Origin: a virus
Reading direction: 5' to 3' (one strand)
Virus record (IMG/VR): IMGVR_UViG_3300026518_000680
Coordinates: 1-31,011 of that record
Length of the DNA stretch: 31,011 nt
Positions 2,554 through 19,270 of this stretch are shown here, one piece after another (position 1 is the stretch's first letter; each line of letters starts with the position of its first letter). Both the position numbers and the translations under genes were made by a program. The notes under the pieces were generated by a model. The model had not been told where the DNA came from, ran no database searches, and was given only the letters and a program-made list of their open reading frames with translations.

Positions 2554-3150
2554 ATGACAACCGCTACCCTCGAAGTCCCCGCAGTACCCGCCGTCTCGGT
2601 CACCACAAGCCCGGGTCTTGACGCCCAGCCCTGGATCGACGACTACGCCATGGAGCGCGTGTCGTATCAGGTCGCCCGCCTGTCGCGTTCGCTCGACCTC
2701 GGCGAGCACGACGAGGACGACATCCGCCAAGACCTCATCGCCGAGTTGTGCTCCGCCGAGCCGCGGTTCGACCCGTCGATCGCGAGCCGGAAGACGTTTA
2801 TCTGCCGTGTGCTCACTCGCGCGTCGGCGTACATCGCGCGGTCGATCCGGTCGCGGCGGCAGGGGTACGGCCGCCCGATGGTGTCGCTCAGCGCCTTGCA
2901 GGCCGCGCGGGCGGAGCAGTTGCACGCCAGCCAGCGCGACGACCCGGCACAGGGTGTGCCGCTGTCGATCGATCTCGAGCGCGGCCTCGGCCGGCTCGAC
3001 TCGGAGCAGCGCAGGCTCGCCGAGAACCTCAAGACCCAGACGCCGCGGGAGATCGCGGCGGAGTCGGGCGTGCACCGCAGCACCGTGTACCGCGCGATCG
3101 CCGGCATCCGCGAGGAGATGTCCGGCCTGGGCCTCGGCGCGTCCGGTTGA
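2554..3150 (+). CDS. Sigma-factor-like protein, 198 aa
   Basis: Small RNA-polymerase sigma-factor-like protein. Residues about 25-105 resemble region 2: an acidic EHDEDDIRQDLIAEL helix followed by a basic, aromatic-containing helix ending SRRQGYGR. Residues about 142-190 resemble region 4, with helix-turn-helix TPREIAAESGVHRSTVYRAI. Length and two-domain layout fit ECF-size factors or phage-coded sigma proteins. ATG 2554 is preferred because GGAG (2544-2547) lies six bases upstream; an in-frame ATG at 2515 would add 13 residues but has no ribosome site. The gene sits alone directly before the replication operon, and a bipartite motif that could be its promoter target begins two bases after its stop. 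A non-sigma DNA-binding role is possible because region 2 is divergent. Confidence 0.75.
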   Translation: MTTATLEVPAVPAVSVTTSPGLDAQPWIDDYAMERVSYQVARLSRSLDLGEHDEDDIRQDLIAELCSAEPRFDPSIASRKTFICRVLTRASAYIARSIRSRRQGYGRPMVSLSALQAARAEQLHASQRDDPAQGVPLSIDLERGLGRLDSEQRRLAENLKTQTPREIAAESGVHRSTVYRAIAGIREEMSGLGLGASG

Positions 3151-3151
3151 C

Positions 3152-3182
3152 GCGACACATCCGCCGCTCGTGCAGATGTAGA
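3152..3182 (+). promoter_or_regulatory. Bipartite motif, copy 1 (candidate phage-sigma promoter)
   Basis: GCGACAC (3152-3158), nine variable bases, then TCGTGCAGATGTAGA (3168-3182). The same two boxes with the same spacing recur at 19001-19031. In both, the start codon begins six bases after the last base of the motif (GTG 3188 here). The geometry resembles a -35/-10 promoter whose transcription start falls on the start codon. The box is not a good sigma70 -10, which fits an alternative sigma factor. Confidence 0.6.
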
Positions 3183-3187
3183 GGGGC

Positions 3188-4138
3188 GTGAGCCGCCCAA
3201 CGCCCGAGCCCGACGCCAGCGTCCCCAAGAGCGCGCCGCTGGTGCGGCTCGGACAGGGCGACTTCGAGACCCGGATCCACCCATCCGACCTCACCCCGGA
3301 AGGAGACGCGACCACGATGCCGACGGCCGCCGCCGAGACCGACCTTGGCTTCCTCGAGCACGAACCCGCCGACGCGTACCACGCCAGACGGGGCGAACTG
3401 CTCACCTCGCACGCGCTCGCGGACTTCCGCCGCTGCCCGAGGCTGTTCCGGCGCAAGCAACTCGGCATGATCGCCGAGCGCGACTCGGCCGTCTTCGCGT
3501 TCGGGCGGGCCGCGCATGTGCTGATCGTCGAGGGCCGCGAGCGGTTCGACGCGGAGTTCGCCGTCGGCGGCCCGATCAACCCGCGCACCGGCCGCGCGTT
3601 CGGCTCGGAGACCAAGGCGTTCGCCGAGTGGGCCGAGCGTGTCGGCAAGCCGGTGGTCAGCGAGGCGGACGCCGCGCTGCTCGACCGCATGGACGCGTCG
3701 GTGCGTGAGCACGTCTACGCACGCGAGTTGCTGCGGTGCGGCGTTGCCGAGGGCGTCGTGCGAGTGACGTACTGCGGCGTCGCCTGCCAGGCCCGGCTGG
3801 ACTGGGTCAATCCGCTCGACGGACGCGGGATCGTCGACCTCAAGACCTGCGACGACCTCGACCGCTTCGAGGAGGACGCGGTGCGTTTCGGCTACCCGCA
3901 CCAGCTCGCCTTCTACCGCGAGGTCGTCGTGGAGGCGGCGTCGGTCGAGCTCGAATGCCATCTCATCGCGATCGAGAAACGCGAGCCGTTCCGGTGCGGG
4001 GTCTGGCAGCTGTCGCGCCGGCTCATCGACCGTGCCGCGGACGAGAACGTCGAGGCCATCGATCGGCTCGTGAAGTGCCGCGACACCGACGCGTGGCCGA
4101 CCGGCTTCGAGTCGATGCGGCTGATGGACCTCGCCTGA
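3188..4138 (+). CDS. PD-(D/E)XK nuclease-like protein (DUF3799/RecE-type exonuclease), 316 aa
   Basis: Probable DNA exonuclease of the phage recombination module. The nuclease core is visible: RLDWV with Asp205, then GIVDLKT with Asp217 and Lys219, matching the D...(D/E)xK pattern, followed by the YPHQLAFYREVV helix that carries the conserved Q/Y of the Cas4/RecE/DUF3799 group. The N-terminal part has HALADFRRCPRLFRRK, typical of these proteins. I give GTG 3188 because the duplicated upstream motif is spaced identically from this codon and from the ATG at 19037. An ATG at 3317 (GGAAGGAG upstream at 3297-3304, twelve bases away) would remove 43 residues that look unconserved and remains a real alternative. 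First gene of the replication operon; followed by an ATPase and a DUF669 protein, a common phage trio. Confidence 0.85.
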   Translation: MSRPTPEPDASVPKSAPLVRLGQGDFETRIHPSDLTPEGDATTMPTAAAETDLGFLEHEPADAYHARRGELLTSHALADFRRCPRLFRRKQLGMIAERDSAVFAFGRAAHVLIVEGRERFDAEFAVGGPINPRTGRAFGSETKAFAEWAERVGKPVVSEADAALLDRMDASVREHVYARELLRCGVAEGVVRVTYCGVACQARLDWVNPLDGRGIVDLKTCDDLDRFEEDAVRFGYPHQLAFYREVVVEAASVELECHLIAIEKREPFRCGVWQLSRRLIDRAADENVEAIDRLVKCRDTDAWPTGFESMRLMDLA

Positions 4139-4176
4139 ACACCACCCCGGATCCCACACCCAACACAGGAGACCCC

Positions 4177-4932
4177 ATGACGCTGACCGACACGCTCATC
4201 CGAACCGCCTCGCCGGGCCCGCCGAAGATGCTCGTCTTCGGCGACGCCGGCGTCGGCAAGACCAGCCTCGCGCTCGACGCGGGCGCTCTGCTCATCGACT
4301 GCGAGAACGGCGCCGCCGCGATCCCCGGGCTCGTGCGGACCCCGTACCTGTCGAGCTGGCCCGAGATGCGGGCGTGGCTGGTTGAACTCGCCGGCGGCGT
4401 GCCCGACGAGGTCTCGTGCGTCGCGATCGACACGCTGGACTGGATGGTGCAGCGGATCGTCGAGCACGTCGTCATTGAGCTCGACGGCAAGAAGCAGGGC
4501 GACGTGACCAACACGCTCGCGAGCGCGCACGGCGGCTATTTCAAGGCCCGCGAGATCGTTCAGAACATCGTGAGCCGCGATCTGCTGCCGCTGCTCAACC
4601 GCATCAACGACCTCGGGCTGCCGATCCTGTTGCTCGCCCACGCCGCGAACACGAGGGTGACGACGCCCGAGGGGTTCGAGGTCCGCCTGGCCTGCCCGGA
4701 CCTCCCGCAGTGGATCGCGCCCATCTTCATCGAGTGGGCCGATGCCGTGCTGTACGCGCACCGGACCTCGGACGGGGAGCGCGTGCTCGCGACCGAGGGC
4801 ACCAGCACGGTGCTCGCGAAGAACCGCTACTCGATGCCGCCGCTGCTGCCGCTGTCGTGGGGCGCGGTGGTCGAGGCCGTGTCGTCGTCGCCGGCCGCGC
4901 CGGCGATGGCGCCCACCGAAGGGGGTGCGTGA
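4177..4932 (+). CDS. AAA/RecA-like nucleotide-binding protein (AAA_24 type), 251 aa
   Basis: Phage ATPase of the AAA_24 type. The P-loop GDAGVGKT is at residues 22-29 and the Walker B-like strand CVAIDTLDW has its Asp at 85. Later strands (PILLLAHAA, about 148-156, and VLAKNRY near 213) match sensor and arginine-finger regions of RecA-fold phage proteins. Start ATG 4177 has AGGAGA four bases upstream; the open frame upstream of it is only a shadow of the nuclease gene. The C-terminal 20 residues are Ala/Pro-rich and probably disordered. Members of this family are encoded next to PD-(D/E)XK nuclease and DUF669 genes, as here, and are thought to serve recombination or replication as a loader-like ATPase. 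The exact substrate is unknown. The stop overlaps the next ATG (TGATG). Confidence 0.88.
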   Translation: MTLTDTLIRTASPGPPKMLVFGDAGVGKTSLALDAGALLIDCENGAAAIPGLVRTPYLSSWPEMRAWLVELAGGVPDEVSCVAIDTLDWMVQRIVEHVVIELDGKKQGDVTNTLASAHGGYFKAREIVQNIVSRDLLPLLNRINDLGLPILLLAHAANTRVTTPEGFEVRLACPDLPQWIAPIFIEWADAVLYAHRTSDGERVLATEGTSTVLAKNRYSMPPLLPLSWGAVVEAVSSSPAAPAMAPTEGGA

Positions 4933-5399
4933 TGGCGAGTCTTCAGGGATTCGACGCCAACCAGGTCGAGCCGAACGCCGGCTTCGATCCGCTGCCCGCC
5001 GGCAAGTACACCTGCGTGATCGCCGCGTCGGAGATGAAGCCGACCAAGAACGGCGACGGCGAGTACCTCCAGCTTGAGCTCGAAGTGATCGAGGGCGAGC
5101 ACCGGGGCCGCAAGGTCTGGGACCGGCTGCTGCTCAAGCACCCGAACCCCCAGACGGTGCAGATCGCGCGGGGCACGCTCAGCGCCGTCTGCCGGGCGGT
5201 GAACGTGCTGACGCCGCGCGACTCGATCGAGCTGCACGGGCTGCCGCTGGCGGTGAACGTCAAGCTCGAACGCCGCTCGGACAACGGCGAGCTCGCCAAC
5301 CGGGTGTCGTCGTACTCGAAGCGTCAGGCGCCGAGCGCATCCGCCGCGCCCGCTTCGGCCGCCGCCGCGGGCGCTTCGACGCCGCCGTGGAAGCGGTGA
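4932..5399 (+). CDS. DUF669 protein, probable single-strand DNA-binding partner, 155 aa
   Basis: Resembles the DUF669 family of phage recombination modules. The pattern F(D)xLPAGKYTCVIAASEMKPTKNGDGEYLQLELEV (roughly residues 18-52) is the family hallmark: a short beta-rich domain in which the tolerance for GEY-L-L-v-EG is conserved. RGRKVWDRLLLKHPN follows. The tail from about 130 on is Ala/Ser/Pro-rich and ends PPWKR, similar to the flexible tails of SSB-like proteins that recruit partners. Start ATG 4932 overlaps the stop of the ATPase gene, so the two are coupled. The family is generally assumed to bind single-stranded DNA with the neighbouring nuclease and ATPase; this is inferred from context, not visible as a catalytic motif. 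Confidence 0.85.
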   Translation: MASLQGFDANQVEPNAGFDPLPAGKYTCVIAASEMKPTKNGDGEYLQLELEVIEGEHRGRKVWDRLLLKHPNPQTVQIARGTLSAVCRAVNVLTPRDSIELHGLPLAVNVKLERRSDNGELANRVSSYSKRQAPSASAAPASAAAAGASTPPWKR

Positions 5400-5594
5400 C
5401 TCGCACAGCGCAGCAACGGACCAGCACTGGCAAGGCAAGCCGGGGCCCGGCGGGGCGACCCGCGGACAGGCATGGCTAGTCAGGGCCCGGCTGGGCCCGG
5501 CACGGCGACTCATCCCGCCGCCGGCGGAAGCCGGCGCGCGGGGGTTCGGACCGGATCAGACACCTCAACGCCCCCACGGGCAAGGAGCACCCGC
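5400..5594. repeat. Short GC-rich noncoding gap with GGGCCCGGC repeats and a hairpin
   Basis: The sequence GGGCCCGGC occurs three times (5443-5451, 5483-5491, 5493-5501) among GGC-starting words such as GGCAAGGC and AGGCATGGC. A 7-bp hairpin with a GGAA loop lies at 5519-5536. The style resembles the noncoding stretch at 11500-12040. A frame is open through it, but the ribosome site AAGGAG (5582-5587) places the next gene at 5595, so I treat the gap as noncoding. Confidence 0.5.
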
Positions 5595-6272
5595 ATGGTC
5601 GCGACCGCGGCAACCCCGTCCCCCTCTCCATCCCCATCGCGCAACGGCAAGGCGACGACGAAGGCCACGGCCGTCGGGCCCAGCGTCACCAACGGAGGCA
5701 AGGCGACGATCGATGTCTCGCAGCCGTACCGCTTCGAGGTCGAGCTCACCGGCGACGCCGACATCCTGTTCCACCGCTGGAACTGCGAGGCGGTCGAGGC
5801 GAAGGCCAAGGCCGCCAAAGGCTCGGCGGCGAAGAAGACGGACGACGTCGAGTCATACGTCTACCGCGACGACACGGGGTCACTGTGCATCCCCGGCGAG
5901 TACGTGCGGCAGTCGATCATCGGCGCAGCGAAGTACCGGCAGGACCCGCGGTCGCCGCGCAAGAGCGCGCAGGACCTGGTGAAGGCGGCGGTGATCAGCC
6001 TGACCGACCTCGCCAGCCTGGGCGTGACGGACTGGGACTACGAGCACCGCTGCCGCGTGCAGGTCCAGCGGAGCGGGATCACCCGCGTGCGGCCGGCCCT
6101 GAAGAAGGGCTGGAAGGCGTCGTTCCTGTTCATGGTCAACCTGCCGGAGTACGTCAGCCCGGACTTCGTCCACGGGCTGCTCGTCGACGCGGGCCGCCTC
6201 GTCGGCATCGCGGACTTCCGGCCGACCTACGGGCGGTTCCGGGTCACGCGGTTCGAGGTGCTCGATGCGTGA
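5595..6272 (+). CDS. Conserved-looking protein of unknown function in the recombination module, 225 aa
   Basis: ATG 5595 is preceded by AAGGAG seven bases upstream. Residues 1-35 are Ser/Pro/Thr-rich and probably disordered. The folded part starts near 38 with YRFEVELTGDADILFHRW and contains GSLCIPGEYVRQSIIGAAKY (about 95-115), a basic DPRSPRKSAQ stretch, and a C-terminal RFRVTRFEVLD strand. The mix of beta strands, an invariant-looking Gly-Pro loop and basic patches suggests a nucleic-acid-binding protein. It occupies the place where other phages encode a single-strand annealing protein. No catalytic motif is visible and I do not recognise a named family. It overlaps the RusA gene by eight bases, so it belongs to the same operon. 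Confidence 0.75.
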   Translation: MVATAATPSPSPSPSRNGKATTKATAVGPSVTNGGKATIDVSQPYRFEVELTGDADILFHRWNCEAVEAKAKAAKGSAAKKTDDVESYVYRDDTGSLCIPGEYVRQSIIGAAKYRQDPRSPRKSAQDLVKAAVISLTDLASLGVTDWDYEHRCRVQVQRSGITRVRPALKKGWKASFLFMVNLPEYVSPDFVHGLLVDAGRLVGIADFRPTYGRFRVTRFEVLDA

Positions 6273-6708
6273 ACGGCGCGCGACCGGGGACGGGCCGGAG
6301 GAAGCGGCGGGCGCGCTGCGCCTGACGCTGCCGTGGCCGCCGAGCGTGAACAACGCCTGGCGGACGGTCCCGGTCCCGGTCCGCGGCGGGGGGCCCCGGC
6401 GGGGCTTCCGGGTGGTGCTGAGCCGCGAGGGGCGGGCGTTCCGCAGGGACGTGGTCGCCCGCCTCTCCGGCCGGCGCTGCGGCGGCTGCCTGACCGGCCG
6501 GCTCTCGGTGACGGTCGACCTGCACCCGCCCACGCGCCGCCCCATCGACATCGACAACCGGCTGAAGGCGCTGCTGGACGCGCTCCAGCACGCGGGGGTG
6601 TACCGCGACGACGGGCAGATCGACGAGATCGCGGTCCGGCGGCGCGGCGTTCGGAAGGGCGGGCTTGCGGTGGTCCGAATCGAGGAGCTTTGCGATGGCG
6701 AGAGTTGA
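6265..6708 (+). CDS. rusA: RusA-type Holliday-junction resolvase, 147 aa
   Basis: RusA family endonuclease, which cuts four-way DNA junctions during phage recombination and replication. Family signatures are visible: LPWPPSVNNAWR near the N-terminus (about 25-36) and the catalytic acidic block RPIDIDNRLKALLDALQHAGVYRDDGQIDEI (about 92-122), where the Asp residues of DIDN, LDAL and RDD hold the metal. The length is a little above the usual 120-140 because of a charged N-terminal extension (MRERRATGDGPEEAAG); a later start is possible, but no in-frame ATG or clear ribosome site supports one. The gene overlaps the previous one by eight bases and the next by fourteen. Confidence 0.9.
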   Translation: MRERRATGDGPEEAAGALRLTLPWPPSVNNAWRTVPVPVRGGGPRRGFRVVLSREGRAFRRDVVARLSGRRCGGCLTGRLSVTVDLHPPTRRPIDIDNRLKALLDALQHAGVYRDDGQIDEIAVRRRGVRKGGLAVVRIEELCDGES

Positions 6709-6955
6709 TCGCGGGCGGGAGGCGCACGTGTGTCTGGGGTGCGGGCGGAGCACGACCGCGCGAAGCCAGGTGTGCAACCGCTGCATGTACCACCAGCCGA
6801 TCGCGGAGTTGTTGCCGATTGACGACGACGACGGCGACCACGACCGCTTCGACGAGGAGTCGGGCCCCGACTCGCTGGCGCCGTTCGCGCACGACGTTGA
6901 GGTCGCCCGGCGCTGGGACTCGGCGGGCCGCCCGGCCCAGAGGATGTTCGCCTGA
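6695..6955 (+). CDS. Small zinc-ribbon protein, 86 aa
   Basis: Short acidic protein with one four-cysteine knuckle near the N-terminus: CLGCG followed by CNRC, spaced like a zinc ribbon. The rest (IDDDDGDHDRFDEESGPD) is strongly acidic and probably flexible. ATG 6695 is supported by GAGGAG seven bases upstream. The stop overlaps the helicase ATG (TGATG), so the protein is made together with the helicase and may be its accessory factor; the helicase itself carries another zinc ribbon. No enzymatic motif is present. Confidence 0.75.
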   Translation: MARVDRGREAHVCLGCGRSTTARSQVCNRCMYHQPIAELLPIDDDDGDHDRFDEESGPDSLAPFAHDVEVARRWDSAGRPAQRMFA

Positions 6956-8655
6956 TGCAGCTCCGCCCGTACCAGCGCGAGGCGGTCGACGCGATCTACC
7001 ACCACCTGCGCGAGCGCGACGACAACCCCGTCGCGGTGCTCCCGACCGGCGGCGGCAAGACGCCGCTGATCTCGACGATCTGCCGCGACGCCGTGCAGAC
7101 CTGGGACGGCCGGGTGCTCGTCCTGGCCCACGTTCGCGAGCTGCTCCAGCAGGCGGTCGACAAGCTGCACGTGATGGCGCCCGATCTGTGGAACCGCGTC
7201 GGCGTCTACTCGTCGGGTCTGAAGAGCCGCGACACCGACCACGACATCATCGTGGCGGGGATCCAGAGCGTGTATCGCCGTGCCCACGAGTTGGGCCCGT
7301 TCGACCTGGTCATCGTCGACGAGGCGCACATGATCCCGGCGGACGGGGAGGGGATGTACCGGCAGTTCCTGGTCGATGCCAGGGTCGTCAACCCTCACGT
7401 CCGCGTCGTCGGCCTGACCGCGACGCCGTACCGGCTCAAGACCGGCGAGATCTGCGGGCCGGGCAACATCCTGAACCACGTCTGCTACGAGGTCGGCGTG
7501 CGCGAGCTGATCGCGCAGGGCTACCTGTCGCCATTGCGCACGAAGGCGGGGGCCGCGAGGGCGGACACCGGCGGGCTCCACGTCCGCGGCGGCGAGTTCG
7601 TCGCCGGCGAGGCCGAGGACCTGATGGACGACGATGCCCTTGTCGAGGCGGCGTGCGCCGAGATCGTGGAGGAGACGAAGGGCCGCACCGCGACGCTGAT
7701 CTTCGCCGCGGGCGTCCGCCACGGGGAGCACATCCAGTCCGTCCTGCGCGATCGGCACGGGGTCGAGTGCGGGTTCGTGTCGGGCGAGACGCCGCCGGGC
7801 GAACGCGACGAGATCCTCGGCCGTTTCCGAAACGGCGACCTCAAGTATCTCGCCAACGTCCAGGTGCTGACGGTCGGCTTCGACGCCCCGCACATCGACT
7901 GCGTGGCGCTCGTGAGGCCGACGATGAGCCCCGGGCTGTACTACCAGATGGTCGGTCGCGGCTTCCGGCTGCACCCGGGCAAGGACGACTGCCTGGTGCT
8001 CGACTTTGGCGGCAACGTGCTCCGGCACGGGCCGGTCGACGCGGTTCGCGTGGCGACCGATGACCGCGGAGACGGGGGCGAAGCGCCCGCGAAGGAGTGC
8101 CCGTCGTGCCGGGCGCTGATCGCGGCGGGCTACCAGGCGTGCCCCGAGTGCGGGCACGAGTTCCCGCCGCCGAACCGGGGCAAGCACGAGGCGCGGGCGT
8201 CGGACGAGGGCATCCTCACCGGGCAGGTCACGCGCTCCGAGCACGACGTCACGGACACCACGTACCACATCCACTGGAAGCGGCACGACCCGGGCGCGGC
8301 GCTGACGATGCGCGTCGAGTACGAGGTCGGCATCGGGCAGGTGGTCCGCGAGTGGGTCTGCTTCGACCACGAGGGGTACGCGCGAACCAAGGCCGAGGCG
8401 TGGTGGCGGGCGAGGTCGATCGAGCCCGTTCCCGACTGCGTCGAGGAAGCGGTCGAGCTCGCGAAAGCCGGGGCGCTAGCGCCGACGCACGCGATCACCG
8501 TTGAGAAGAAAGCCGGTGACAAGTTCGATCGGGTCGTGCGGCACCGGCTCGGCAACAAGCCGCCGCGGCTGGACGACCCGGACGCCGCGCCGGCGCACGC
8601 GGCACCCGCCTCCGAAGCGTGGCGTGACATCCCGCTGGACGAGATCCCCTTCTGA
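6955..8655 (+). CDS. DEAD/DEAH-box superfamily 2 helicase with C-terminal zinc ribbon, 566 aa
   Basis: ATP-driven DNA helicase of the phage SF2 (SSL2/RadD-like) type. Visible motifs in order: LRPYQREAV (3-11), Walker A PTGGGKT (30-36), LAHVRELL (motif Ia), DEAH (122-125), GLTATPYRL (motif III), LIFAAGVRHGE and GFVSGETP (start of domain 2), LTVGFDAP (motif V) and QMVGRGFR (331-338, motif VI with arginine finger). A zinc ribbon with CPSC (382-385) and CPEC (396-399) follows, then a domain of about 150 residues with conserved Trp residues. This matches RadD-like helicases, which act at branched DNA and pair logically with RusA and the nuclease. The start overlaps the stop of the zinc-ribbon gene; the stop overlaps the primase ATG. 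Confidence 0.93.
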   Translation: MQLRPYQREAVDAIYHHLRERDDNPVAVLPTGGGKTPLISTICRDAVQTWDGRVLVLAHVRELLQQAVDKLHVMAPDLWNRVGVYSSGLKSRDTDHDIIVAGIQSVYRRAHELGPFDLVIVDEAHMIPADGEGMYRQFLVDARVVNPHVRVVGLTATPYRLKTGEICGPGNILNHVCYEVGVRELIAQGYLSPLRTKAGAARADTGGLHVRGGEFVAGEAEDLMDDDALVEAACAEIVEETKGRTATLIFAAGVRHGEHIQSVLRDRHGVECGFVSGETPPGERDEILGRFRNGDLKYLANVQVLTVGFDAPHIDCVALVRPTMSPGLYYQMVGRGFRLHPGKDDCLVLDFGGNVLRHGPVDAVRVATDDRGDGGEAPAKECPSCRALIAAGYQACPECGHEFPPPNRGKHEARASDEGILTGQVTRSEHDVTDTTYHIHWKRHDPGAALTMRVEYEVGIGQVVREWVCFDHEGYARTKAEAWWRARSIEPVPDCVEEAVELAKAGALAPTHAITVEKKAGDKFDRVVRHRLGNKPPRLDDPDAAPAHAAPASEAWRDIPLDEIPF

Positions 8656-11078: not shown

Positions 11079-11091
11079 GTATACACACACA

Positions 11092-11185
11092 CTTCTTTCT
11101 CTCTTTCACCTTCTTACCCCCACCCCCACGCGCGTGTGTCTGTGTCTGCGCACGCACGCGGGCCGGGGTGAAAGAGGGAAAGAGG
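11092..11185 (+). promoter_or_regulatory. Long two-tier hairpin downstream of the replication operon
   Basis: Bases 11092-11110 (pyrimidine-rich, ending CTCTTTCACC) pair with 11167-11185 (GGTGAAAGAG...) over 19 bp with two G-U pairs. Within the loop, 11129-11138 pairs with 11151-11160 (nine of ten). No T-run follows, so it is more like an RNA processing or stability element than a simple terminator. The strand asymmetry (C+T, then G+A) could also form triplex DNA. Confidence 0.5.
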
Positions 11186-11634: not shown

Positions 11635-11664
11635 GGACGCCCCGCGGCGCGAAGGCGTCGCGGG
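11635..11664 (+). repeat. 30-base hairpin repeat, copy 1
   Basis: Identical to 12009-12038 except at two positions. Folds into a 10-bp stem (11641-11650 with 11655-11664, one G-U pair) closed by a C-G pair over loop GAAG. Confidence 0.65.
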
Positions 11665-12008
11665 TGCGCTTGCGGATTGCCAGGGGAAGGCCTGGCGAGG
11701 CGGGGCTAGATGCGGCGCGATCGGGCTTGGTACGGCATGGAACGGTGCGGACCCGTCGCCGTCCCGAGACGGAGGTCTCGGGCAGCGCCTCATCAATGGC
11801 GGGGCATGGCAGGGAATGGCGAGGCGAGGCTCGGCCTGGCGAGCTCTGGACAGGAAAGGCATGGCCCGGCGCTTCCGCCGCGCACCGCGGGAGCGGTGCG
11901 ACGGCGATTCCTCACGACTGCGTCGTGACACTCAGCGTGAACAGGCGGGGCTTGTCGGGATCTGGTGAGGCGCGGCTCGGCGTGGCGGGCATTGGCGAGG
12001 CCCGGCCT

Positions 12009-12038
12009 GGACGCCCCGCGGCGTGAAAGCGTCGCGGG
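12009..12038 (+). repeat. 30-base hairpin repeat, copy 2
   Basis: Second copy of the repeat at 11635-11664. CCCCGCGGCG (12014-12023) pairs with CGTCGCGGGG (12030-12039) over 10 bp with one G-U pair. Both differences lie at the top: the closing pair changes from C-G to T-G and the loop from GAAG to GAAA (a GNRA loop). The stem ends 28 bases before the AAGGAGG of the methyltransferase gene, so it would be in its leader. Confidence 0.65.
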
Positions 12039-12077
12039 GGCATTGAACGGACAAGAACAGCGAGCAAGGAGGCTTCG

Positions 12078-13406
12078 ATGAAGGCAGACAAGACACCCAA
12101 GGTGGAGATGGTCGCGATCGACGACATCCGCGAGTACAAGCGGAACCCCCGGACGATCGGTGAGGAGGCAATCAAGGCCGTGGCCGACTCGATCCGCGAG
12201 TTCGGGTTCCGCGTGCCGGTGCTGATCGACGGACAAGGCGAACTCGTCGCGGGGCACACGCGGGTGCGGGCCGCCCGGTCGCTCGGCATGGATCGTGTTC
12301 CGTGCATCCGCGTCGCCGATCTGACGCCCGAGCAGGTCCGCGCGTTCCGCATCGCCGACAACCAGGTGGCTTCGCTCTCAACTTGGGATCAGGAACTCCT
12401 GCCGCTGGAGCTGGCCGATCTGCGTGACGCGGAGTTCGACCTGTCCGTGCTCGGCTTCGACATGAGCGAAGTCGAGGCGATGCTCGCGCCGGCGGGCACC
12501 GAGGGGAAGACCCCGGCGGACGACGTGCCCGAGACGCCGGACGACGACGAGGTCGTCACGCGGCCCGGCGATCTATGGGTGCTCGGGCGGCACCGGTTGC
12601 TCTGCGGCGACTCGACCAACGCCGCGGATGTCGATCGGCTCATGGACGGCGAGCGAGCGGCGCTGGTCGCGACCGACCCGCCGTACCTGGTCGACTACAC
12701 CGGCGAGCGGCCCAACGGCACGGGCAAGGACTGGACGGAGAACTACCGCGAGATCGACATCGACGACGCCGAGGGGTTCTTCCGCGGCGTGTTTGAGAAC
12801 GTGACGCGCGTCATCGCGCCGCACGCCGCGATCTACTGCTGGCACGCGCACAAGCGCTGCGGCGTGATCCAGACGGTCTGGGCCGACCTCGGCATCCTCG
12901 ATCATCAGTCGGTCGTCTGGGTGAAGCCGACGCCGGTGTTCGGGCGCGTGTTCTGGCACTTCCGCCACGAGCCGTGCATGATGGGCTGGGTGCAGGGCAG
13001 CAAGCCCGAGCACGACGGCGACCACTCGATGGAGATGAACTCCGTCTGGGAGCTCGGCTGGGAAGGCGGAGCCGGTGGAGCGTCGGGTGGCGAGAAGTCG
13101 CGCGTCACCGGCAACGAGCACCCGACGCAGAAGCCCGTCGAGCTGTTCGCCCGGCCGATGCGCAAGCACACCAAGCCAGGCCAGGTCTGCTACGAGCCGT
13201 TCAGCGGGTCGGGGTCGCAGCTCATCGCGGGCGAGCAGGAAGGCCGGCGGGTCTTCGCGATGGAGATCTCGCCGGCGTTCGTCGATGTCGCGGTGCGCCG
13301 CTGGCAGCGGTTCACCGGCGAGGTCGCGACGCGGTTCGATACGGACGGCGTGGAGCAGGCTGGGATGGAAAACGAGGCGACGGTCGAGCTTGGGAGCGGG
13401 GTGTGA
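12078..13406 (+). CDS. ParB-domain DNA methyltransferase (beta class, N4/N6), 442 aa
   Basis: Two-domain protein. Residues 1-110 are a ParB/sulfiredoxin-like nuclease-type domain: KRNPRTIGEEAIKAVADSIREFGF, then VAGHTRVRAARSLG with the GHTR box. A hinge with acidic residues (about 140-160) leads to PGDLWVLGRHRLLCGDST and the methyltransferase domain. DPPY at 200-203 is the catalytic motif and EPFSGSGS (373-380) is the AdoMet site, in the order typical of beta-class enzymes. No restriction partner is nearby, so it is an orphan phage methylase, probably protecting phage DNA or marking the packaging or replication region. ATG 12078 has AAGGAGG (12067-12073) four bases upstream. Such ParB-MTase fusions are common in phages near the terminase. 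Confidence 0.92.
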   Translation: MKADKTPKVEMVAIDDIREYKRNPRTIGEEAIKAVADSIREFGFRVPVLIDGQGELVAGHTRVRAARSLGMDRVPCIRVADLTPEQVRAFRIADNQVASLSTWDQELLPLELADLRDAEFDLSVLGFDMSEVEAMLAPAGTEGKTPADDVPETPDDDEVVTRPGDLWVLGRHRLLCGDSTNAADVDRLMDGERAALVATDPPYLVDYTGERPNGTGKDWTENYREIDIDDAEGFFRGVFENVTRVIAPHAAIYCWHAHKRCGVIQTVWADLGILDHQSVVWVKPTPVFGRVFWHFRHEPCMMGWVQGSKPEHDGDHSMEMNSVWELGWEGGAGGASGGEKSRVTGNEHPTQKPVELFARPMRKHTKPGQVCYEPFSGSGSQLIAGEQEGRRVFAMEISPAFVDVAVRRWQRFTGEVATRFDTDGVEQAGMENEATVELGSGV

Positions 13407-13421
13407 GCGCGATGATCCGAC

Positions 13422-13449
13422 CCGACTCCAGCCCTCTTCGATCAGTCGG
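13422..13449. terminator. Weak inverted repeat between convergent genes
   Basis: CCGACT (13422-13427) pairs with AGTCGG (13444-13449) across the 35-base gap where the methyltransferase (plus) and Fic (minus) genes meet. The loop is 16 bases and there is no T-run, so this is only a possible bidirectional stop. Confidence 0.25.
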
Positions 13450-14680
13450 CGAGACGGCGAAGGTCATCGCCGAAGCGGTCGTTGAGGTCGGCGAGCGTTC
13501 GTCGCAGATTCGCCTCGCGATCGCCGTCGTCATCATCCGTGAGCGCCGACAGGTACGCCTCGTAGATGTAGACGCGGTCGCGCTGCTTGCCGGTGGTCTC
13601 GCGCAGGACGCCGGCCTTGAGCAGTTCCTCGATGCACTTCGAGGCCGTGGGCTTGGCAACGCCGAGCAACTCCACGGCCCGGGGCAGCGTCATCACGGGG
13701 TGCTGCGGCATGGCCTCGAGCAGCCGGATCGTGTTGACGGTCGCCGAGCCCGAGGCGAGCAGCTTGGCGCGATCGTCGTTCACGATCCGAAAGAGATGGC
13801 CGGCCATATTGACCGCGTCTTCCGCGGCCTCGGCGACGCACTCGAGGAAGAACGCAGTCCAGCCCTCCCAGTCGCCTTCGGTGCGCACCGCGGCGAGGCG
13901 GGCGTAGTACTCCTGCTGGCGGCGCTTGAACGCCACGCTCAGGTACAGCAGCGGCTGATCGAGCAGGCCCCAGTGCTCCACAAGCAGCGTGATGAGCATG
14001 CGGCCGATGCGACCGTTGCCGTCGAGGAACGGGTGGATGGTCTCGAACTGCACATGCGCGAGCCCGGCCTTGACCAAGGGCGGCAGCGGGTCGCCCGAGT
14101 GCATCCACTTCTCAAGGACCGCGATCGCGGGGGCGACCTCCTCGTGCGGCGGCGGAACGAAGCGGGCGTTGCCCGGGCGCGTGCCGCCGATCCAGTTCTG
14201 GCTCCGGCGGATCTCGCCGGGGAGTTTGTCCTCGCCGCGCACGCCTCGCATGAGGATGCGGTGGACATCGCACAGCAGCCGCGTGCTCAGCGGCAGGCCG
14301 GCGGGGTCGGCGATCGCGGCGCGGGCGTGGTTGAGGCCATCGACGTAGTTGCAGACCTCCTCGACATCGGCCGGGCGGTCGGCGCTGCTGGTGGCCTCGA
14401 AGGTGGCGACGTCGCGGAGCGTCGCCTGGGTGCCCTCGATCTGCGAGGACAGCACGGCTTCCTTGCGGACGAAGCCGTAGAGGAACCAGCCCGGATCCGG
14501 GACCATGGCCCCCGCAACGCGGAGCCGACCGATGGCGGCGACCGCCGCGGTGTGACGCTCGGCGAGGTCACTCTCAATGACCAGGGCGGGGTCCGCCGGG
14601 GGCAGGGGGTGCGGAACGAACGCCTTCACGGTCTCGCCGTGGGTGGTGCTCGTTCGGTATGTGCCAGTCTCTCGGGGCAT
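13442..14680 (-). CDS. fic: Fic-domain AMPylase with C-terminal winged helix, 412 aa
   Basis: Fic enzymes transfer AMP (or another nucleotide part) to hydroxyl groups of target proteins. The catalytic motif HPFLDGNGRIGR is complete at 216-227. An inhibitory helix SSQIEGT at 78-84 lies N-terminal to it, so this is a class II Fic in which the glutamate of the motif blocks activity until displaced; no separate antitoxin is needed or seen. The C-terminal part (about 300-385) has a winged helix-turn-helix, AVELLGVAKPTASKCIEELLKAGVL, so the protein may bind its own promoter. ATG 14680 is preferred because AAGGA lies eight bases upstream; ATG 14689 has no spacing to that site. It has a private promoter and operator-like repeat. 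A host-takeover, dormancy or anti-phage role is possible; the target is unknown. Confidence 0.92.
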   Translation of the reverse strand: MPRETGTYRTSTTHGETVKAFVPHPLPPADPALVIESDLAERHTAAVAAIGRLRVAGAMVPDPGWFLYGFVRKEAVLSSQIEGTQATLRDVATFEATSSADRPADVEEVCNYVDGLNHARAAIADPAGLPLSTRLLCDVHRILMRGVRGEDKLPGEIRRSQNWIGGTRPGNARFVPPPHEEVAPAIAVLEKWMHSGDPLPPLVKAGLAHVQFETIHPFLDGNGRIGRMLITLLVEHWGLLDQPLLYLSVAFKRRQQEYYARLAAVRTEGDWEGWTAFFLECVAEAAEDAVNMAGHLFRIVNDDRAKLLASGSATVNTIRLLEAMPQHPVMTLPRAVELLGVAKPTASKCIEELLKAGVLRETTGKQRDRVYIYEAYLSALTDDDDGDREANLRRTLADLNDRFGDDLRRLAD

Positions 14681-14722
14681 GTTCGACATCCTTGGGAAAG
14701 CAGACGTTCCCAACGGGGATCA

Positions 14723-14761
14723 CTAGTTCAGCATTCTGTACTAGATCGGCCCGCTAGTCAA
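14723..14761 (-). promoter_or_regulatory. Promoter and CTAG operator for the Fic gene
   Basis: On the minus strand TTGACT (14756-14761) is followed after 17 bases by CAGAAT (14733-14738), a good sigma70-type pair. CTAGT (14723-14727) and ACTAG (14740-14744) form an inverted repeat that flanks the -10 box, and a further CTAG lies beside the -35 box. This layout fits repression of Fic, possibly by its own winged helix. Confidence 0.6.
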
Positions 14762-14786
14762 GGCGACTTTACCAAGCCTCGCCACA

Positions 14787-14812
14787 CGAGAAACCCCGGC
14801 CGGAGGCCGGGG
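14787..14812 (-). terminator. Terminator of the small minus-strand operon
   Basis: On the minus strand CCCCGGCC, loop TCC, GGCCGGGG (plus 14794-14812) is a perfect 8-bp stem followed by TTTCTCG. It lies just after the stop at 14840 and separates that operon from the Fic promoter. Confidence 0.6.
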
Positions 14813-14839
14813 AAGCGGGATCGGGCGGCCCGGGACCGG

Positions 14840-15199
14840 TCAGCCGGCATCCACGGGCTCGGGGCCCTTCTCCCGGAGGGCGTGGTACTCAGTCATCGCG
14901 TCCAGGTAGCAGTCGCCGCTGGCGGCGTGGTTGGTGTCGCCGCGGCGCTCGACGATGCTGCGCTCCTTCAGGAACGCCAGGGCCACGGCGGCCTGGGTCC
15001 ACGCGACCCGCTCGGCTCCGGCGATCTGGTTCAGGGTCCGCTGGTCGCTGTCGCGGCCGTCGAAGTGGTGCGCGACGGCTTGGAGTGTGTCGAGCGAGCA
15101 GCGGTGCTCGTACTGGTGGCCGTCGGTGCTGACGCGGGTGCGGACGAGCGCGCCCTCGGCGTCGATGCGGAAGTGCTCGATCGGGTGGCGGCGGTTCAT
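14840..15199 (-). CDS. Small hypothetical protein, 119 aa
   Basis: No recognised family. The sequence opens MNRRHPIEHFRIDAEGALV and has a short basic and histidine-containing N-terminus, then a helical stretch (SLDTLQAVAHHF, LNQIAGAERVAWTQAAVALAFLKERSIVERRG) that looks like a small winged helix, so DNA or RNA binding is possible. No cysteine cluster or membrane segment. ATG 15199 has GGAAGG seven bases upstream and overlaps the stop of the zinc-ribbon gene by four bases, so both are coupled. The frame continues upstream of this ATG, but only as a shadow of the neighbouring gene. A terminator follows. Confidence 0.65.
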   Translation of the reverse strand: MNRRHPIEHFRIDAEGALVRTRVSTDGHQYEHRCSLDTLQAVAHHFDGRDSDQRTLNQIAGAERVAWTQAAVALAFLKERSIVERRGDTNHAASGDCYLDAMTEYHALREKGPEPVDAG

Positions 15200-15393
15200 G
15201 CCTCGGCCTTCCGCTCGCGAGTTGGGTCGCCCTCGCGCCAGATGAGGCCCGGCCCCGGGTCGTACCGGCAGCCGCAGGTATTGCACTCGACGACGTCGTC
15301 CTCGACCCAGATCAGGAGGTCCATCTCCCGTTCGCCGCACCAGGGGCAGGCGAAGCCGGGCTCGACGGGGGTGCTGTCGTGCTGATCGGTCAT
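15196..15393 (-). CDS. Small zinc-ribbon protein, 65 aa
   Basis: Four-cysteine zinc ribbon covering nearly the whole protein: CPWCG near residue 16 and CNTCG near 37, with acidic and aromatic residues between (LLIWVEDDVVE) and a basic C-terminus. GGGAG lies eight bases before ATG 15393. Small zinc ribbons of this kind are often adaptors in transcription or replication complexes; nothing more specific can be read. It is flanked by a four-base overlap with the 119-aa gene and a three-base gap after the histone-like gene. Confidence 0.75.
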   Translation of the reverse strand: MTDQHDSTPVEPGFACPWCGEREMDLLIWVEDDVVECNTCGCRYDPGPGLIWREGDPTRERKAEA

Positions 15394-15396
15394 GGT

Positions 15397-16059
15397 TCAA
15401 GCTCCCTTCTTCGTCTGGTGCCCGGCTTCGAAGAGCCCGCGGTCGGCCTTGCGGAAGCGGGCCGCATCGCCCTTCTTGGCGATCTCGCGGGTCATCGCGG
15501 CGTAGAGCGTGGCCTCGGGCGTCTTGCCGTTGGTCTTCCAGCCGGCGGCGATCGCTCGCTCGGCGATCTGCTTGGCCTTGAGCGGCTCGCCGGCGTCGGC
15601 GAGGACCTTCGCGGCGAGGTCAAGGCCGCTGGGCTTGCGGTCTGCCTCGCGCTTCTTCGCGGCGGTCTTCGGTCGCTTCGAGCGCGGGATCGTGACGCCA
15701 TCGGCGAGGTTGCCCTTCTTGATCGCATCAACCGTCTTGGCCGCGTCCGACTCCGCCATCGCCCGCTCACTCGGCGTCATGCCGTCCTTGCTCGCGGCCC
15801 GCTGGTCGCGCTTGGTCGCGTTCTCCTGGTCGGCCGCCGCGATGGCCTTGAGGTTGGCGTCGACGCTCGCCTTCGCGTCAGCCAGGGCCCGCTTGGTCTT
15901 GGCAGCGCCCTCGGCCCGGGCGGCGCTCGCGGACATGCGGGGCGACTTCTTCGCCGGGGCCTTCTTCGCGGGTGCCTTCTTCGGCTGCGTCTTGCGCGTC
16001 GTGGTCTTCTTGGTCGTGTTCGTGGTGGCCGTCTTCTTGGTGGTGGTCTTCTTCGCCAT
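15397..16059 (-). CDS. Histone-like HARE-HTH protein with lysine-rich tail, 220 aa
   Basis: DNA-binding protein with two parts. Residues 1-40 are Lys/Thr/Ala-rich with repeated KKAPAKKAPAKK units, like eukaryotic H1 tails and bacterial histone-like proteins. Residues about 148-215 form a HARE-HTH (winged-helix) domain: LDLAAKVLADAGEPLKAKQIA, AAGWKTNGKTPEATLYAAM, then a final strand RKADRGLFE. The middle (45-145) is a charged, probably helical linker. AAGGAGT lies about seven bases before ATG 16059. The family is known from bacterial nucleoid proteins and restriction-linked regulators, and similar proteins with K-rich tails are common in planctomycetes. In a phage it may compact DNA, shield it from host factors or regulate genes. 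It is isolated from the upstream gene by a terminator. Confidence 0.85.
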   Translation of the reverse strand: MAKKTTTKKTATTNTTKKTTTRKTQPKKAPAKKAPAKKSPRMSASAARAEGAAKTKRALADAKASVDANLKAIAAADQENATKRDQRAASKDGMTPSERAMAESDAAKTVDAIKKGNLADGVTIPRSKRPKTAAKKREADRKPSGLDLAAKVLADAGEPLKAKQIAERAIAAGWKTNGKTPEATLYAAMTREIAKKGDAARFRKADRGLFEAGHQTKKGA

Positions 16060-16078
16060 GTCGGTACTCCTTGGGGTT

Positions 16079-16112
16079 CCAAAAACAGCGAAGCCCGCGA
16101 CGAGCGGGCTTC
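16079..16112 (-). terminator. Rho-independent terminator after the DUF6900-like gene
   Basis: On the minus strand GAAGCCCGC, a 5-base loop and GCGGGCTTC form a perfect 9-bp stem (plus 16090-16112), followed by GCTG and TTTTT. It begins at the stop codon of the 74-aa gene, so that mRNA ends before the histone-like gene. The clearest intrinsic terminator in the window. Confidence 0.85.
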
Positions 16113-16335
16113 AGAGGGGGCGGATCTCGATATCCCGGTCACACGCCGGGCAGGTGGTTCGTGTTGGCGGTGCCGCCTTGCGGCCCGCTTCGTACGCCCG
16201 TTCGAGGGCGTCCTTGATGGACCAGACCGCGTGCTCGTGGAAGTCGAGGCTGTCCATCCGGCGGGCCTCGAGCGTTTCGAGGTCGAGGACCTCGCGGGCG
16301 ATGCGGTTGATGGCGTTGTCGCGTGCGTTCGGCAT
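16111..16335 (-). CDS. DUF6900-like small protein, 74 aa
   Basis: Short protein whose core AINRIAREVLDLETLEARRMDSLDFHEHAVWSIKDALERAYEAGRKAA resembles DUF6900 proteins of plasmids and phages, in which SLDFH and VW-A---AY-AG are conserved. The family has no known biochemical function. The C-terminus adds CPAC and DIEI, a possible half zinc site that could be completed in a dimer. ATG 16335 is chosen because GGAGA lies upstream and the family begins near here; the open frame continues to 16386 without support. It is transcribed away from the terminase genes, from the divergent gap at 16336-16466. Confidence 0.75.
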   Translation of the reverse strand: MPNARDNAINRIAREVLDLETLEARRMDSLDFHEHAVWSIKDALERAYEAGRKAAPPTRTTCPACDRDIEIRPL

Positions 16336-16466
16336 GGTCGTCTCCGTCGTTCGCGGCGGCGGGCATTCGCCCCGCGTGTGACACATGAAGCCACGACATC
16401 GCCGGCAAGGGAAGGCGTTGCGCCCTTCATTTCTCGATGTTTCCGAGATTCTGCGGGAGGTGCGGC

Positions 16467-16715
16467 GTGACTCCCGAACATGCGCCTAGTCCCGGCGGCA
16501 AGCCCGGCCTGAACCCCGCCGCGCTGCGCGTTGAAGACGCCGCGAAGGTGCTCTCCCGCATGGGCGGGAAGCCCGTCACCGCGGACATGCTCGAGGCGGA
16601 CATCGACGCCGGCGCGCCGACGAACGTCGATGGGAGCATCAACCTCGTGCACTACGCGGCGTGGCTGGTGCGCGAGATGAGCGCCGGGGCGGCAGGGGGT
16701 GGCCGTGCCGATTGA
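16467..16715 (+). CDS. Small-terminase-like DNA-binding protein, 82 aa
   Basis: Start GTG 16467 has GGGAGG (16455-16460) six bases upstream; an ATG at 16437 is possible but lacks a site. The protein starts with a Gly/Pro-rich stretch, then LRVEDAAKVLSRM, VTADMLEADIDAGAP and INLVHYAAWLVREM. The same pattern (VI----L-----AG, then VDLFRYVAWLA) is found in the first 65 residues of the large terminase that follows. Its place directly before terL and its small HTH-like size suggest a terminase small subunit or a DNA-recognition domain working with terL. It overlaps terL by 17 bases. No biochemical motif is present, so the role is inferred. Confidence 0.65.
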   Translation: MTPEHAPSPGGKPGLNPAALRVEDAAKVLSRMGGKPVTADMLEADIDAGAPTNVDGSINLVHYAAWLVREMSAGAAGGGRAD

Positions 16716-18978
16716 CCCGCGGCAACTCCGTCCCGGCGAGCTGTGCCGGCTACTGAACTCCACCCCGCTGGGCGAGGTGATCAGCGAGCGGCAGCTGCAC
16801 CGTCACCGCACGCGCGCGGGGTTTCGCGTCGCTGCGGACGGGGACACCGGTCGCGTGGACCTGTTCCGGTACGTCGCGTGGCTCGCGGCCGTGCGACACG
16901 AGCCGAAGCCCGACCCGACCGAGGCCGAGGATTACGAGGCGTACCGCGACCGCAAGGCCCGCGAAGCGAGGGCGATGTCGCTGTCGGGCCGTGACATCGG
17001 CGAGTTGCCCGACGTAGCGGACGCGGCCCGGAAGGGCCGTGCCCGGGGCGACTTCCGGTTCTTCTGCGAGGCGTACTTCCCCCAGACGTTCCACCTGCGG
17101 TGGTCCGCCGACCACCTGAAGGTGATCTCCAAGATCGAGCAGGCGGTGCTCGAGGGCGGGCTGTTCGCGATGGCGATGCCCCGCGGCAGCGGGAAGACGA
17201 GTCTCTGCGAGACCGCGTGCCTCTGGGCCATGGTCTACGGACACCGCGGCTTCGTCGCGCTGATCGGCTCGGATGAAGAGCACGCCGCCGACATGCTCGA
17301 ATCGATCAAGGCCGAGCTGGAGAACAGCGAGCTGCTCGCGGCCGACTTCCCGGAGGTCTGCCACCCGATCCGCTCGTTGGAGGGGATCACCCAGCGAGCC
17401 GCCGGGCAGCTCTACCGCGGCAGGCAGACGCACATCGGGTGGACGGCGAAGGAGATCGTGCTGCCGACGATTGAGGGGTGCGAGGCGTCGGGGGCGATCA
17501 TCCGCGTCGCGGGAATCACGGGCCGGATCCGAGGCATGAAGTTCAAGCGGGCGGATGGCCAGAGCGTCCGGCCGTCGCTGGTGCTGATCGACGACCCGCA
17601 GACCGACGAGAGCGCCCGCAGCCCAAGCCAGTGCGCCAACCGCGAGCGGGTGCTGGCCGGCGCGGTGCTCGGCCTCGCCGGGCCGGGCGAGAAGATCGCC
17701 GGGCTCATGACGCTCACGGTGGTTCGTCCCGACGACCTGGCCGATCGGCTGCTCGACCGGGACAAGCACCCGCAGTGGCAGGGCGAACGGACGAAGATGG
17801 TGTACGCGTTCCCTGACGACGAGGCGCTTTGGTCCAAGTACGCGGAGATGCGCGCCGACGGTCTGCGTGCTGACAAGGGCCTTGCCGCCGCGACCCGGTT
17901 CTACAAGCGCAATCGGAAGGCGATGGATCGTGGCGCGGAGACCGCATGGCCCGAGCGATACAACCACGACGAGGCGTCGGCGATCCAGCACGCGATGAAC
18001 CTCCGCCTCCAGGACGAGGCGGCATTCTTCGCGGAGTACCAGAACGAGCCGCTGCCCGAGGTTGAGGCCGACGACGACCTGCTGACCGCAGAGCAGATCG
18101 CGTCGAAGACGAACGGCATGGCTCGGGGCATTGTGCCGATCGCCTGCACGCGTGCGACAGCATTCATCGACGTGCAGGGGAAACTGCTGTACTGGCTGGT
18201 TGCCGGTTGGGAGGACGACTTTACGGGCTACGTGCTCGACTACGGGGCATGGCCCGATCAGAAGCAGGCGTACTTCACGCTCCGGGATGCCAAGCGGACC
18301 CTTTCGACCGCCACGCCACGGGCTGGTCAGGAAGGAGCGATCTACGCCGGCCTGGAGGCGTTGACCGACCATCTGCTCGGGAAGGCGTGGCGTCGCGACG
18401 ACGGGACGGACTTTCGTATCGAGCGGTGCTTGGTCGACGCGAACTGGGGCGCATCGACGGACGTCGTCTACCAGTTCTGCCGGCAGAGCGGGTTTGGCGG
18501 GATCGTGATGCCGAGCCATGGGCGGTACGTCGGGGCGAGCAGCATCCCCTTCAGCGACTACAAACGGAAGCGCGGCGAGCGGGTCGGACTTAACTGGCGC
18601 GTCCCTGTGGTGACGGGCAAGCGTGCGATCCGTCACGCTCTCTACGACACGAACTACTGGAAGAGCTTCGTGCACGCGCGGCTCGCCGTGCCGATGGGCG
18701 ACCCTGGGTACCTGTCATTCTTCGGGCGCGACGCCGAAGCGCACCGGCTGGTGGCAGAGCACCTGACTGCGGAGTATCGAGTCAAGACCGAGGGACGCGG
18801 GCGGACCGTCGACGAGTGGAAGATCCGCGTGGCGGGCATCGACAACCACTGGCTTGACTGCCTGGTCGGCTCGGCGGTGGCAGCATCCATGCAGGGCGCG
18901 GTGCTGTTCGGAACAGATGTGAGGACACCAACTCGTCCACGCCTCAAGTTGTCATCGGTCCAGCGCAGCCGCACCTGA
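16699..18978 (+). CDS. Terminase large subunit (GpA-like), 759 aa
   Basis: DNA-packaging motor. Residues 1-65 are an HTH-like domain related to the small gene before it. The ATPase follows: FFCEAYFPQTF, Walker A PRGSGKT (161-167), Walker B LVLIDD with the acidic pair at 298-299, and a coupling region AGLMTLTVV. The nuclease domain has FIDVQG (near 488) with the first metal-binding Asp, CLVDANWG with the second, and the closing NHWLDC. This order matches phage lambda GpA-type terminases. GTG 16699 is used; GTG 16705 two codons later is equally possible because AGGGGG precedes both. The C-terminus ends with a basic tail. A lambda-type portal follows, consistent with a GpA system. Confidence 0.92.
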   Translation: MAVPIDPRQLRPGELCRLLNSTPLGEVISERQLHRHRTRAGFRVAADGDTGRVDLFRYVAWLAAVRHEPKPDPTEAEDYEAYRDRKAREARAMSLSGRDIGELPDVADAARKGRARGDFRFFCEAYFPQTFHLRWSADHLKVISKIEQAVLEGGLFAMAMPRGSGKTSLCETACLWAMVYGHRGFVALIGSDEEHAADMLESIKAELENSELLAADFPEVCHPIRSLEGITQRAAGQLYRGRQTHIGWTAKEIVLPTIEGCEASGAIIRVAGITGRIRGMKFKRADGQSVRPSLVLIDDPQTDESARSPSQCANRERVLAGAVLGLAGPGEKIAGLMTLTVVRPDDLADRLLDRDKHPQWQGERTKMVYAFPDDEALWSKYAEMRADGLRADKGLAAATRFYKRNRKAMDRGAETAWPERYNHDEASAIQHAMNLRLQDEAAFFAEYQNEPLPEVEADDDLLTAEQIASKTNGMARGIVPIACTRATAFIDVQGKLLYWLVAGWEDDFTGYVLDYGAWPDQKQAYFTLRDAKRTLSTATPRAGQEGAIYAGLEALTDHLLGKAWRRDDGTDFRIERCLVDANWGASTDVVYQFCRQSGFGGIVMPSHGRYVGASSIPFSDYKRKRGERVGLNWRVPVVTGKRAIRHALYDTNYWKSFVHARLAVPMGDPGYLSFFGRDAEAHRLVAEHLTAEYRVKTEGRGRTVDEWKIRVAGIDNHWLDCLVGSAVAASMQGAVLFGTDVRTPTRPRLKLSSVQRSRT

Positions 18979-19000
18979 TCGGGGTCGTTTCAAAGTCGGT

Positions 19001-19031
19001 GCGACACTTTGGCGGGTCGTGCAGATGTAGA
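19001..19031 (+). promoter_or_regulatory. Bipartite motif, copy 2 (candidate phage-sigma promoter)
   Basis: GCGACAC (19001-19007), nine bases, TCGTGCAGATGTAGA (19017-19031), identical in both boxes and spacing to 3152-3182. The next ATG is at 19037, again six bases after the motif. The nine bases between the boxes differ completely between the copies, as expected for a two-box protein site rather than a general duplication. Confidence 0.6.
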
Positions 19032-19036
19032 AGGCG

Positions 19037-19270
19037 ATGGCAGAGCCTTCTTCCAACACCCCCGACCTCGACCAAGCGATCGCCGAGAACGCCGCCGGGC
19101 CCGCGAAGGCGTCGGTGGACGGTCAGTCGGTCGAGCAGCACCCGCTGCCCGATGTGATCGAGGCCGACCGCTACCGCGAGTCCAAGAAGGCGTCGCGGAA
19201 GCCCGGGATCGGCATCCGGTTTTCCAAGCTGGTCCCGCCGGGAACGGAAGACCACGGGGGTGCGGCCTGA
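19037..19270 (+). CDS. Small protein between terminase and portal, 77 aa
   Basis: Short charged protein with an Ala/Ser-rich, probably flexible N-terminus and a compact core DVIEADRYRESKKASRKPGIGIRFSKLVPPGTE at about 37-70. The (I/V)EADRY and RF-KLVPPG pattern recurs in small proteins encoded just before portal genes. By position it could be a head-completion (gpW-like) protein, but sequence similarity to gpW is not clear to me. ATG 19037 lies directly after the bipartite motif and has no well-spaced ribosome site, which fits a leaderless start. The stop overlaps the portal ATG. Confidence 0.75.
   Translation: MAEPSSNTPDLDQAIAENAAGPAKASVDGQSVEQHPLPDVIEADRYRESKKASRKPGIGIRFSKLVPPGTEDHGGAA

Follow-up and report, generated by a model that had tools for sequence, protein, structure and literature searches.

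A putative ECF-like sigma factor and its predicted two-site promoter in phages of Phycisphaerales

T4 gp55 and SPO1 gp28/gp34 are late or middle sigma factors of large virulent phages with many promoters. The locus described here lies in what we call the window (the whole stretch of DNA that was analyzed, a virus record of 31,011 bp starting only 2.5 kb before a sigma-like gene). It is like these systems in that sigma replacement would act as a temporal switch, but it belongs to phages that are smaller, in many cases prophages, and that have two or three sites. Many ECF sigma factors use GGAAC/CGTC-type boxes; the boxes of the window phage differ. The window protein shares with ECF sigma factors (TIGR02937; SigE, SigH, CnrH) a length of about 200 amino acids, possession of regions 2 and 4 only, and two-box promoters; unlike them, it is phage-borne, its predicted targets are phage operons, and neither an anti-sigma nor a membrane sensor was identified in linkage with it. 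The start-associated sequences of Cluster K mycobacteriophages occur in many copies near Shine-Dalgarno sites. Both cases have a short conserved element set at a constant distance ahead of start codons, but here there are two copies, each made of two boxes and tied to a sigma gene.

The phage sigma factors of phiEco32 and 7-11 serve a few well-conserved promoters before middle and late genes; in those phages such promoters also precede the sigma gene, and there is a gene for an anti-sigma (PMC4331800). The window phage is like these two in having a sigma distantly related to sigma-A, few conserved promoters, and first sigma molecules that would be made by the host sigma; it differs in that both window sites lie downstream of sigma and in that many sigma/promoter types occur within one phage family. 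This comparison is limited, as the window reaches only 2.5 kb before sigma and two relatives have a third copy upstream. Within our partial coverage of the literature, we came across no account of this system, whether in work on sigma factors of planctomycete phages or in work on leaderless promoters of phage sigmas. Phage sigma factors as such are already known, and what is new is the co-diversifying sigma/promoter pairs. Very probably, an ECF-like sigma factor of this phage switches on its replication and structural operons through one promoter type, a reading for which there are no transcript, binding or promoter data.

A sigma-like gene and two copies of one motif

The protein encoded before the first motif copy matched PHROG 1740 (E 1.8e-9) and, over nearly the full length of the profile (residues 34-189), NCBIfam TIGR02937 (sigma70-ECF; E 9.9e-8). 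Counting against the assignment, it stays below the curated cut-offs of both TIGR02937 (31.8 bits against 42.9; the relative L028 scores 47.4) and Pfam Sigma70_r2 (residues 39-91, E 1.3e-3), the latter being exceeded in six relatives. A profile of the sigma family searched against PDB found RpoE/SigE (E 1.6e-9). The AF2 model (pLDDT 84, pTM 0.47) has two confident helical domains, with helices at 30-104 and 137-191, joined by a less confident linker with one helix (112-127); the 198-aa protein thus has two structured domains only and no region 1.1 or 3, as expected of an ECF sigma. Region 2 lies at about residues 34-91 and the region 4 HTH at about 137-191, and region 2 is present besides region 4 across the family. 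Superposed singly, the two regions fit sigma factors at about 1.5-2.7 Å: region 2 fits pro-sigma-K (2.4 Å over 77 residues) and the region 4 HTH fits region 4 of SigF/SigD/SigW (1.5-2.6 Å). The model does not fix how the domains are oriented to each other. The best Foldseek matches were mostly sigma factors with ECFs on top, though none passes E 0.001. The sigma-like fold is shown by computation, and the original prediction, which had called this gene sigma-like, is supported by the TIGR02937, PHROG 1740 and PDB profile matches, by Sigma70_r2 in relatives and by the ECF-led fold search.

Table 1. Coordinates of the sigma-like gene, the two predicted promoters and the genes that follow them in the window
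Feature	Coordinates	Strand	Basis or remark
Sigma factor gene, ECF-like, 198 aa	2554..3150	+	PHROG 1740, TIGR02937, Sigma70_r2, AF2 fold
Promoter S1 (predicted)	3152..3182	+	GCGACAC, N9, TCGTGCAGATGTAGA; right after sigma stop codon
Exonuclease VIII-like (DUF3799), first gene after S1	3188..4138	+	PHROG 412 E 2e-41; PF12684 E 1e-25
Sak4-like annealing ATPase, second gene after S1	4177..4932	+	PHROG 124 E 4e-30
Promoter S2 (predicted)	19001..19031	+	GCGACAC, N9, TCGTGCAGATGTAGA; between terminase large subunit and gp77
gp77, 77 aa	19037..19270	+	Conserved ahead of portal in relatives (tblastn)
Portal protein, second gene after S2	19270..20763	+	PHROG 21 E 5e-65

The sigma gene has GGAG at 6-base spacing ahead of ATG 2554; there is an in-frame upstream ATG at 2515. 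An inverted repeat, AACCGCGCAAA/TTTGCGCGGTT, that looks terminator- or operator-like lies upstream of sigma at about 2420-2460. A consensus scan of 2200-3300, which covers S1 and not S2, called no host-type promoter or terminator, this repeat included; the consensus used may not suit planctomycete promoters.

The motif GCGACAC-N9-TCGTGCAGATGTAGA occurs in two exact copies (S1 and S2), direct repeats about 16 kb apart whose inner nine bases are identical at 4/9 positions. No further match was found in the window with up to 3 mismatches allowed, and 100 shuffles of its sequence gave 0 matches. Used as probes, S1 and S2 each found the other as the best other match in the window. The sigma stop codon is at 3148-3150, so the first copy starts two bases further on. 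Six positions past the final base of the motif (five bases between) come the start codons, GTG 3188 for S1 and ATG 19037 for S2, each 15 bases past the first base of CAGA. The placement of the first copy two bases after the sigma-like gene, together with the positions, box sequence, spacing and start-codon distance of both copies, is exactly as originally predicted.

Both copies also head the gene blocks attributed to them: downstream of S1 are genes for the exonuclease VIII-like protein, Sak4, SSB, helicase and primase (the replication operon), and downstream of S2 are those for the 77-aa protein, portal and head protease (the portal/capsid cluster). The exonuclease keeps an N-terminal PLVRLGQG motif in relatives from the GTG 3188 frame. 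gp77 had no match in PHROG.

Agreement of box type with sigma type in relatives

The window sigma used as a single-protein query found no relative in viral contigs, and tblastn found none in named phages; relatives were gathered instead through Sak4 (26 loci) and terminase (80 kept of 554 matches). Bacterial genomes yielded 220 relatives, and the listed matches that name a class or order are mostly Phycisphaerae/Phycisphaerales, which makes the hosts planctomycetes and many of the copies prophages. The window phage belongs to a family of phages and prophages of Phycisphaerales (Planctomycetota) with hundreds of members. The sigma profile detected homologues in 27 of 50 viral contigs, fragments included, and matches in all 30 host genomes tested, the weaker of which may be host ECFs. 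A scan of viral contigs for the exact motif found nothing except one near-identical phage. The strict window motif occurred at 6 places in 397 Phycisphaerae genomes, against 0 for a reversed control pattern; it is thus not scattered across host chromosomes, as the original prediction required.

In most relatives, a short box (S1) directly follows the sigma gene or runs over its stop codon, and it usually has a counterpart of its kind (S2) before gp77. S1 and S2 regions were much more similar within a phage than between phages (mean 16.8 vs 8.4; n = 22), and none of 100,000 permutations reached the observed value (maximum 12.6). When whole contigs were scanned with S1, position left free, 21 of 39 phages (3 of the 39 being near-duplicates) had their best second match no more than 110 bases ahead of gp77 and on the correct strand; by our own arithmetic about 0.1 phages would be expected by chance. 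Scanned with their own shared S1/S2 pattern, 13 of 16 phages had matches solely at the two expected sites. Among the exceptions, the G024a pattern is only 12 bases long and gives chance hits, G025 and G033 have one poor threshold-level extra match each, within or near chance expectation, and G031 has its S2 outside the scanned stretch and one weak extra match. Reciprocal S1/S2 probes agree in six phages.

Two properties expected of a sigma-dependent promoter are two boxes with fixed spacing facing genes and a box type that changes with the sigma. Both were found. Spacing is constant within each phage and nearly so within each class. Of 23 pairs that could be classified, 20 have S1 and S2 of one class (20,000 permutations gave a mean of 4.6 and at most 13), and the 7 S1 classes are accommodated on the sigma tree with 6 changes, the smallest number possible. 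The class patterns were defined after the sequences were seen, so the class test was not a blind one; no such patterns enter the alignment-based tests (similarity in 22 phages and the position-free scan in 39). S2 adjoins terminase and lies 10-16 kb from sigma, yet it fits the sigma tree with fewer changes (9) than the terminase tree (12). A rank (Mantel) test of whole S2 regions against sigma identity was weak (partial 0.13, p 0.0055) and stronger for terminase identity, which counts against the proposed pairing; the weakness is probably due to other conserved DNA within whole S2 regions. These computations show that S1 type agrees with sigma clade and that the two sites are shared type-specifically within phages.

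Region 4 recognition helices tend to sort with the upstream box. Most sigmas with a helix like GVHRxTVxR pair with the GCGACA box, and most with PRxTxRD-like helices pair with CGCCAC-N17-TAGATG. The closest sigma found belongs to L254 (56% identity over 154 residues); after it come GCGACAGATCCGCGGGTCGTGCAGATGTAG, which is a box of the window class, a GTG at the window's start-codon distance and an exonuclease 80% identical to the window's. L238 (sigma at about 40% identity) and L232, neighbors of the window on the sigma tree, have the window class at both sites; in L254, L238 and L232 this box class follows or overlaps the end of sigma. The window-class box stands before gp77 in L030, L035, L050, L232 and L238, and with one extra spacer base in L031-L034. 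Phages with divergent sigmas have a different box, mostly at the same two places. Relatives that keep the sigma but lack the motif had been named as grounds for refutation; the outcome went the other way, as the nearest sigmas (L254, L238, L232) keep it.

The agreement has exceptions. The S2 class differs from that of the phage's own sigma in G037, L239 and L240, and S2 is partly different in L245; G014 combines a type-C-like S1 with an S2 of no recognized class, and no box was found near gp77 in L233, L237, L249 and G017. In L248, a phage with a CGCCAC-type sigma, a box of that class and then one of the window class stand 61 bases apart before gp77. Such tandem two-class promoters before gp77, always 61 bases apart, occur in L031-L034, L148, L150 and L210/L248. 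It looks as if promoter cassettes were gained or lost as sigma types were exchanged, which is an inference. Six relatives (L037, L041, L043, L046, L055, L063) carry a conserved hairpin-like GCCGTGCAGGG..CCCTGTGCGGCGTTGTGCTTTTTGG before gp77 instead of a box.

Proposed mechanism, leader and competing readings

We propose that the sigma gene product would be made first, from a normal leadered mRNA, and would redirect host RNA polymerase. Both window sites lie downstream of sigma, which is thus driven by neither, and no motif copy was found upstream of it in the 2.5 kb that the window covers there. The resulting holoenzyme would recognize a two-box promoter, with GCGACA upstream and GCAGATRTAG about 15 bases on; S1 would drive the recombination/replication operon and S2 would drive gp77 and the genes for portal and head. 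That the phage sigma recognizes these boxes, binds core polymerase and initiates transcription is inferred, and so is the timing.

In the window's subtype, the promoter appears to fix the start codon at a near-constant distance, which probably leaves the mRNA with no leader or with one of a few bases. Nine or more distinct sites of this subtype have the start codon 14-16 bases from CAGA, with no conserved Shine-Dalgarno. No Shine-Dalgarno lies at a workable distance from GTG 3188 or ATG 19037: GAGGGG and AGAAGG stop only 1-2 bases short of the codon, consistent with the earlier remark that neither gene has a well-placed ribosome site, and relatives such as L031-L034 (TAGACACCGTG) do not retain them. 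Possession of the window box does not always go with a leaderless start. In L050, L232 and L251 the start codon is not at 14-16 bases from CAGA, being further away in L232 and L050, and a normal leader is seen in most other box classes. For the window's subtype, mRNA with no leader or almost none is likely but unproven in the absence of RNA data; the original suggestion of leaderless transcripts gains from the near-fixed start codons and the lack of a usable Shine-Dalgarno, but it remains an inference and not a result. Because the classes differ in box spacing, we are not certain of the register in which the -10 element should be read, and the inferred transcription start therefore lacks single-base resolution.

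Resemblance to sigma region 4 is common among phage late regulators, and a sigma-derived DNA-binding activator or repressor might bind both sites while a host sigma initiates, in the manner of ArpU/RinA-type late activators or an operator pair. The score of the window protein under curated sigma cut-offs would suit such a regulator. We nevertheless consider it unlikely, as the family has region 2 plus region 4, both of which superpose on sigma factors, and as the sites have two separated conserved parts at a near-fixed distance from the start codon, like a core promoter; the absence of a host-type promoter from the 2200-3300 scan points the same way for S1 only, with the reservation that the consensus may not fit planctomycetes.

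It is very improbable that the copies are direct repeats for packaging, recombination or a replication origin and not promoters, even though S2 comes right after the large terminase gene and the repeats are about 16 kb apart. Box type follows sigma clade, the copies point at downstream genes, extra copies precede recombinase operons and AlpA/DUF3987 elements, and the distance to the start codon is near-fixed in the leaderless subtype. Packaging-site and att-site readings were rejected because box type follows sigma clade. A fixed position beside start codons without a Shine-Dalgarno could also be expected of a translation-start element acting in the mRNA (a 5' leader or start-associated sequence), but this we find barely credible: in other classes the box stands tens of bases before gp77 and is followed by a normal leader, and in some phages it overlaps the sigma stop codon.

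Extra sites and satellite-like elements

The original prediction saw no third copy of the motif, which holds inside the window (up to 3 mismatches) and not in two relatives, L267 (G052:C44) and L256 (G063:C8), where a third window-type copy precedes DUF2924 and a serine recombinase 5-7 kb upstream of sigma. An equivalent of this copy would lie left of the window, in the region not reached. Two small elements have paired boxes: in L258 (G197:C75, reverse strand, 2286-2390 on the reversed contig) and L273 (G052:C35, 987-1091), a window-class box is followed 76 bases further on by CGCCAC-N17-TAGATG. Both carry an AlpA-like HTH gene and then a large gene, which in L258 is DUF3987; the L258 contig also has an integrase. 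It is possible that these are satellites answering either helper class, a lead and not a result. The claim that the sigma switches on two blocks through one promoter type is thus supported, but its regulon can exceed two blocks, given the third site in two relatives and the extra copies in satellite-like elements.

Seven sigma-profile matches in one genome, some of which may be host ECFs, were seen in host genomes G064, G055, G056 and G067, suggesting several co-resident prophages with different sigma classes. As a tentative idea that we do not yet favor, a family of Phycisphaerales phages may have diversified into many orthogonal sigma/promoter pairs, each having two or three sites in a genome, that serve co-resident prophages as a code of identity; cassettes would be swapped or tandem-stacked when sigma types change, and small satellites (AlpA, DUF3987, integrase) would carry the promoters of two sigma classes so that either helper activates them. 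If the satellite promoters hold up, mobile elements would sense a helper phage via its sigma factor. With dozens of natural sigma/promoter pairs, each having two or more target sites in its genome, the DNA-choice rules of regions 2 and 4 become directly testable; the pairs are also candidate orthogonal expression parts, and they suggest how small planctomycete prophages time replication and assembly.

In several phages (L004, L028, L118, L127 and others), the S1 operon is opened by a small protein with a similar start, which is missing from the window and occurs in many non-leaderless phages; it is conceivable that this protein acts as an anti-sigma. Two sigma homologues stand in tandem in L015 (4093-5412) and L019 (2448-3697). 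In L019, the box after the first sigma has its best counterpart elsewhere near base 1221 of the reverse strand, where a divergent promoter may lie.
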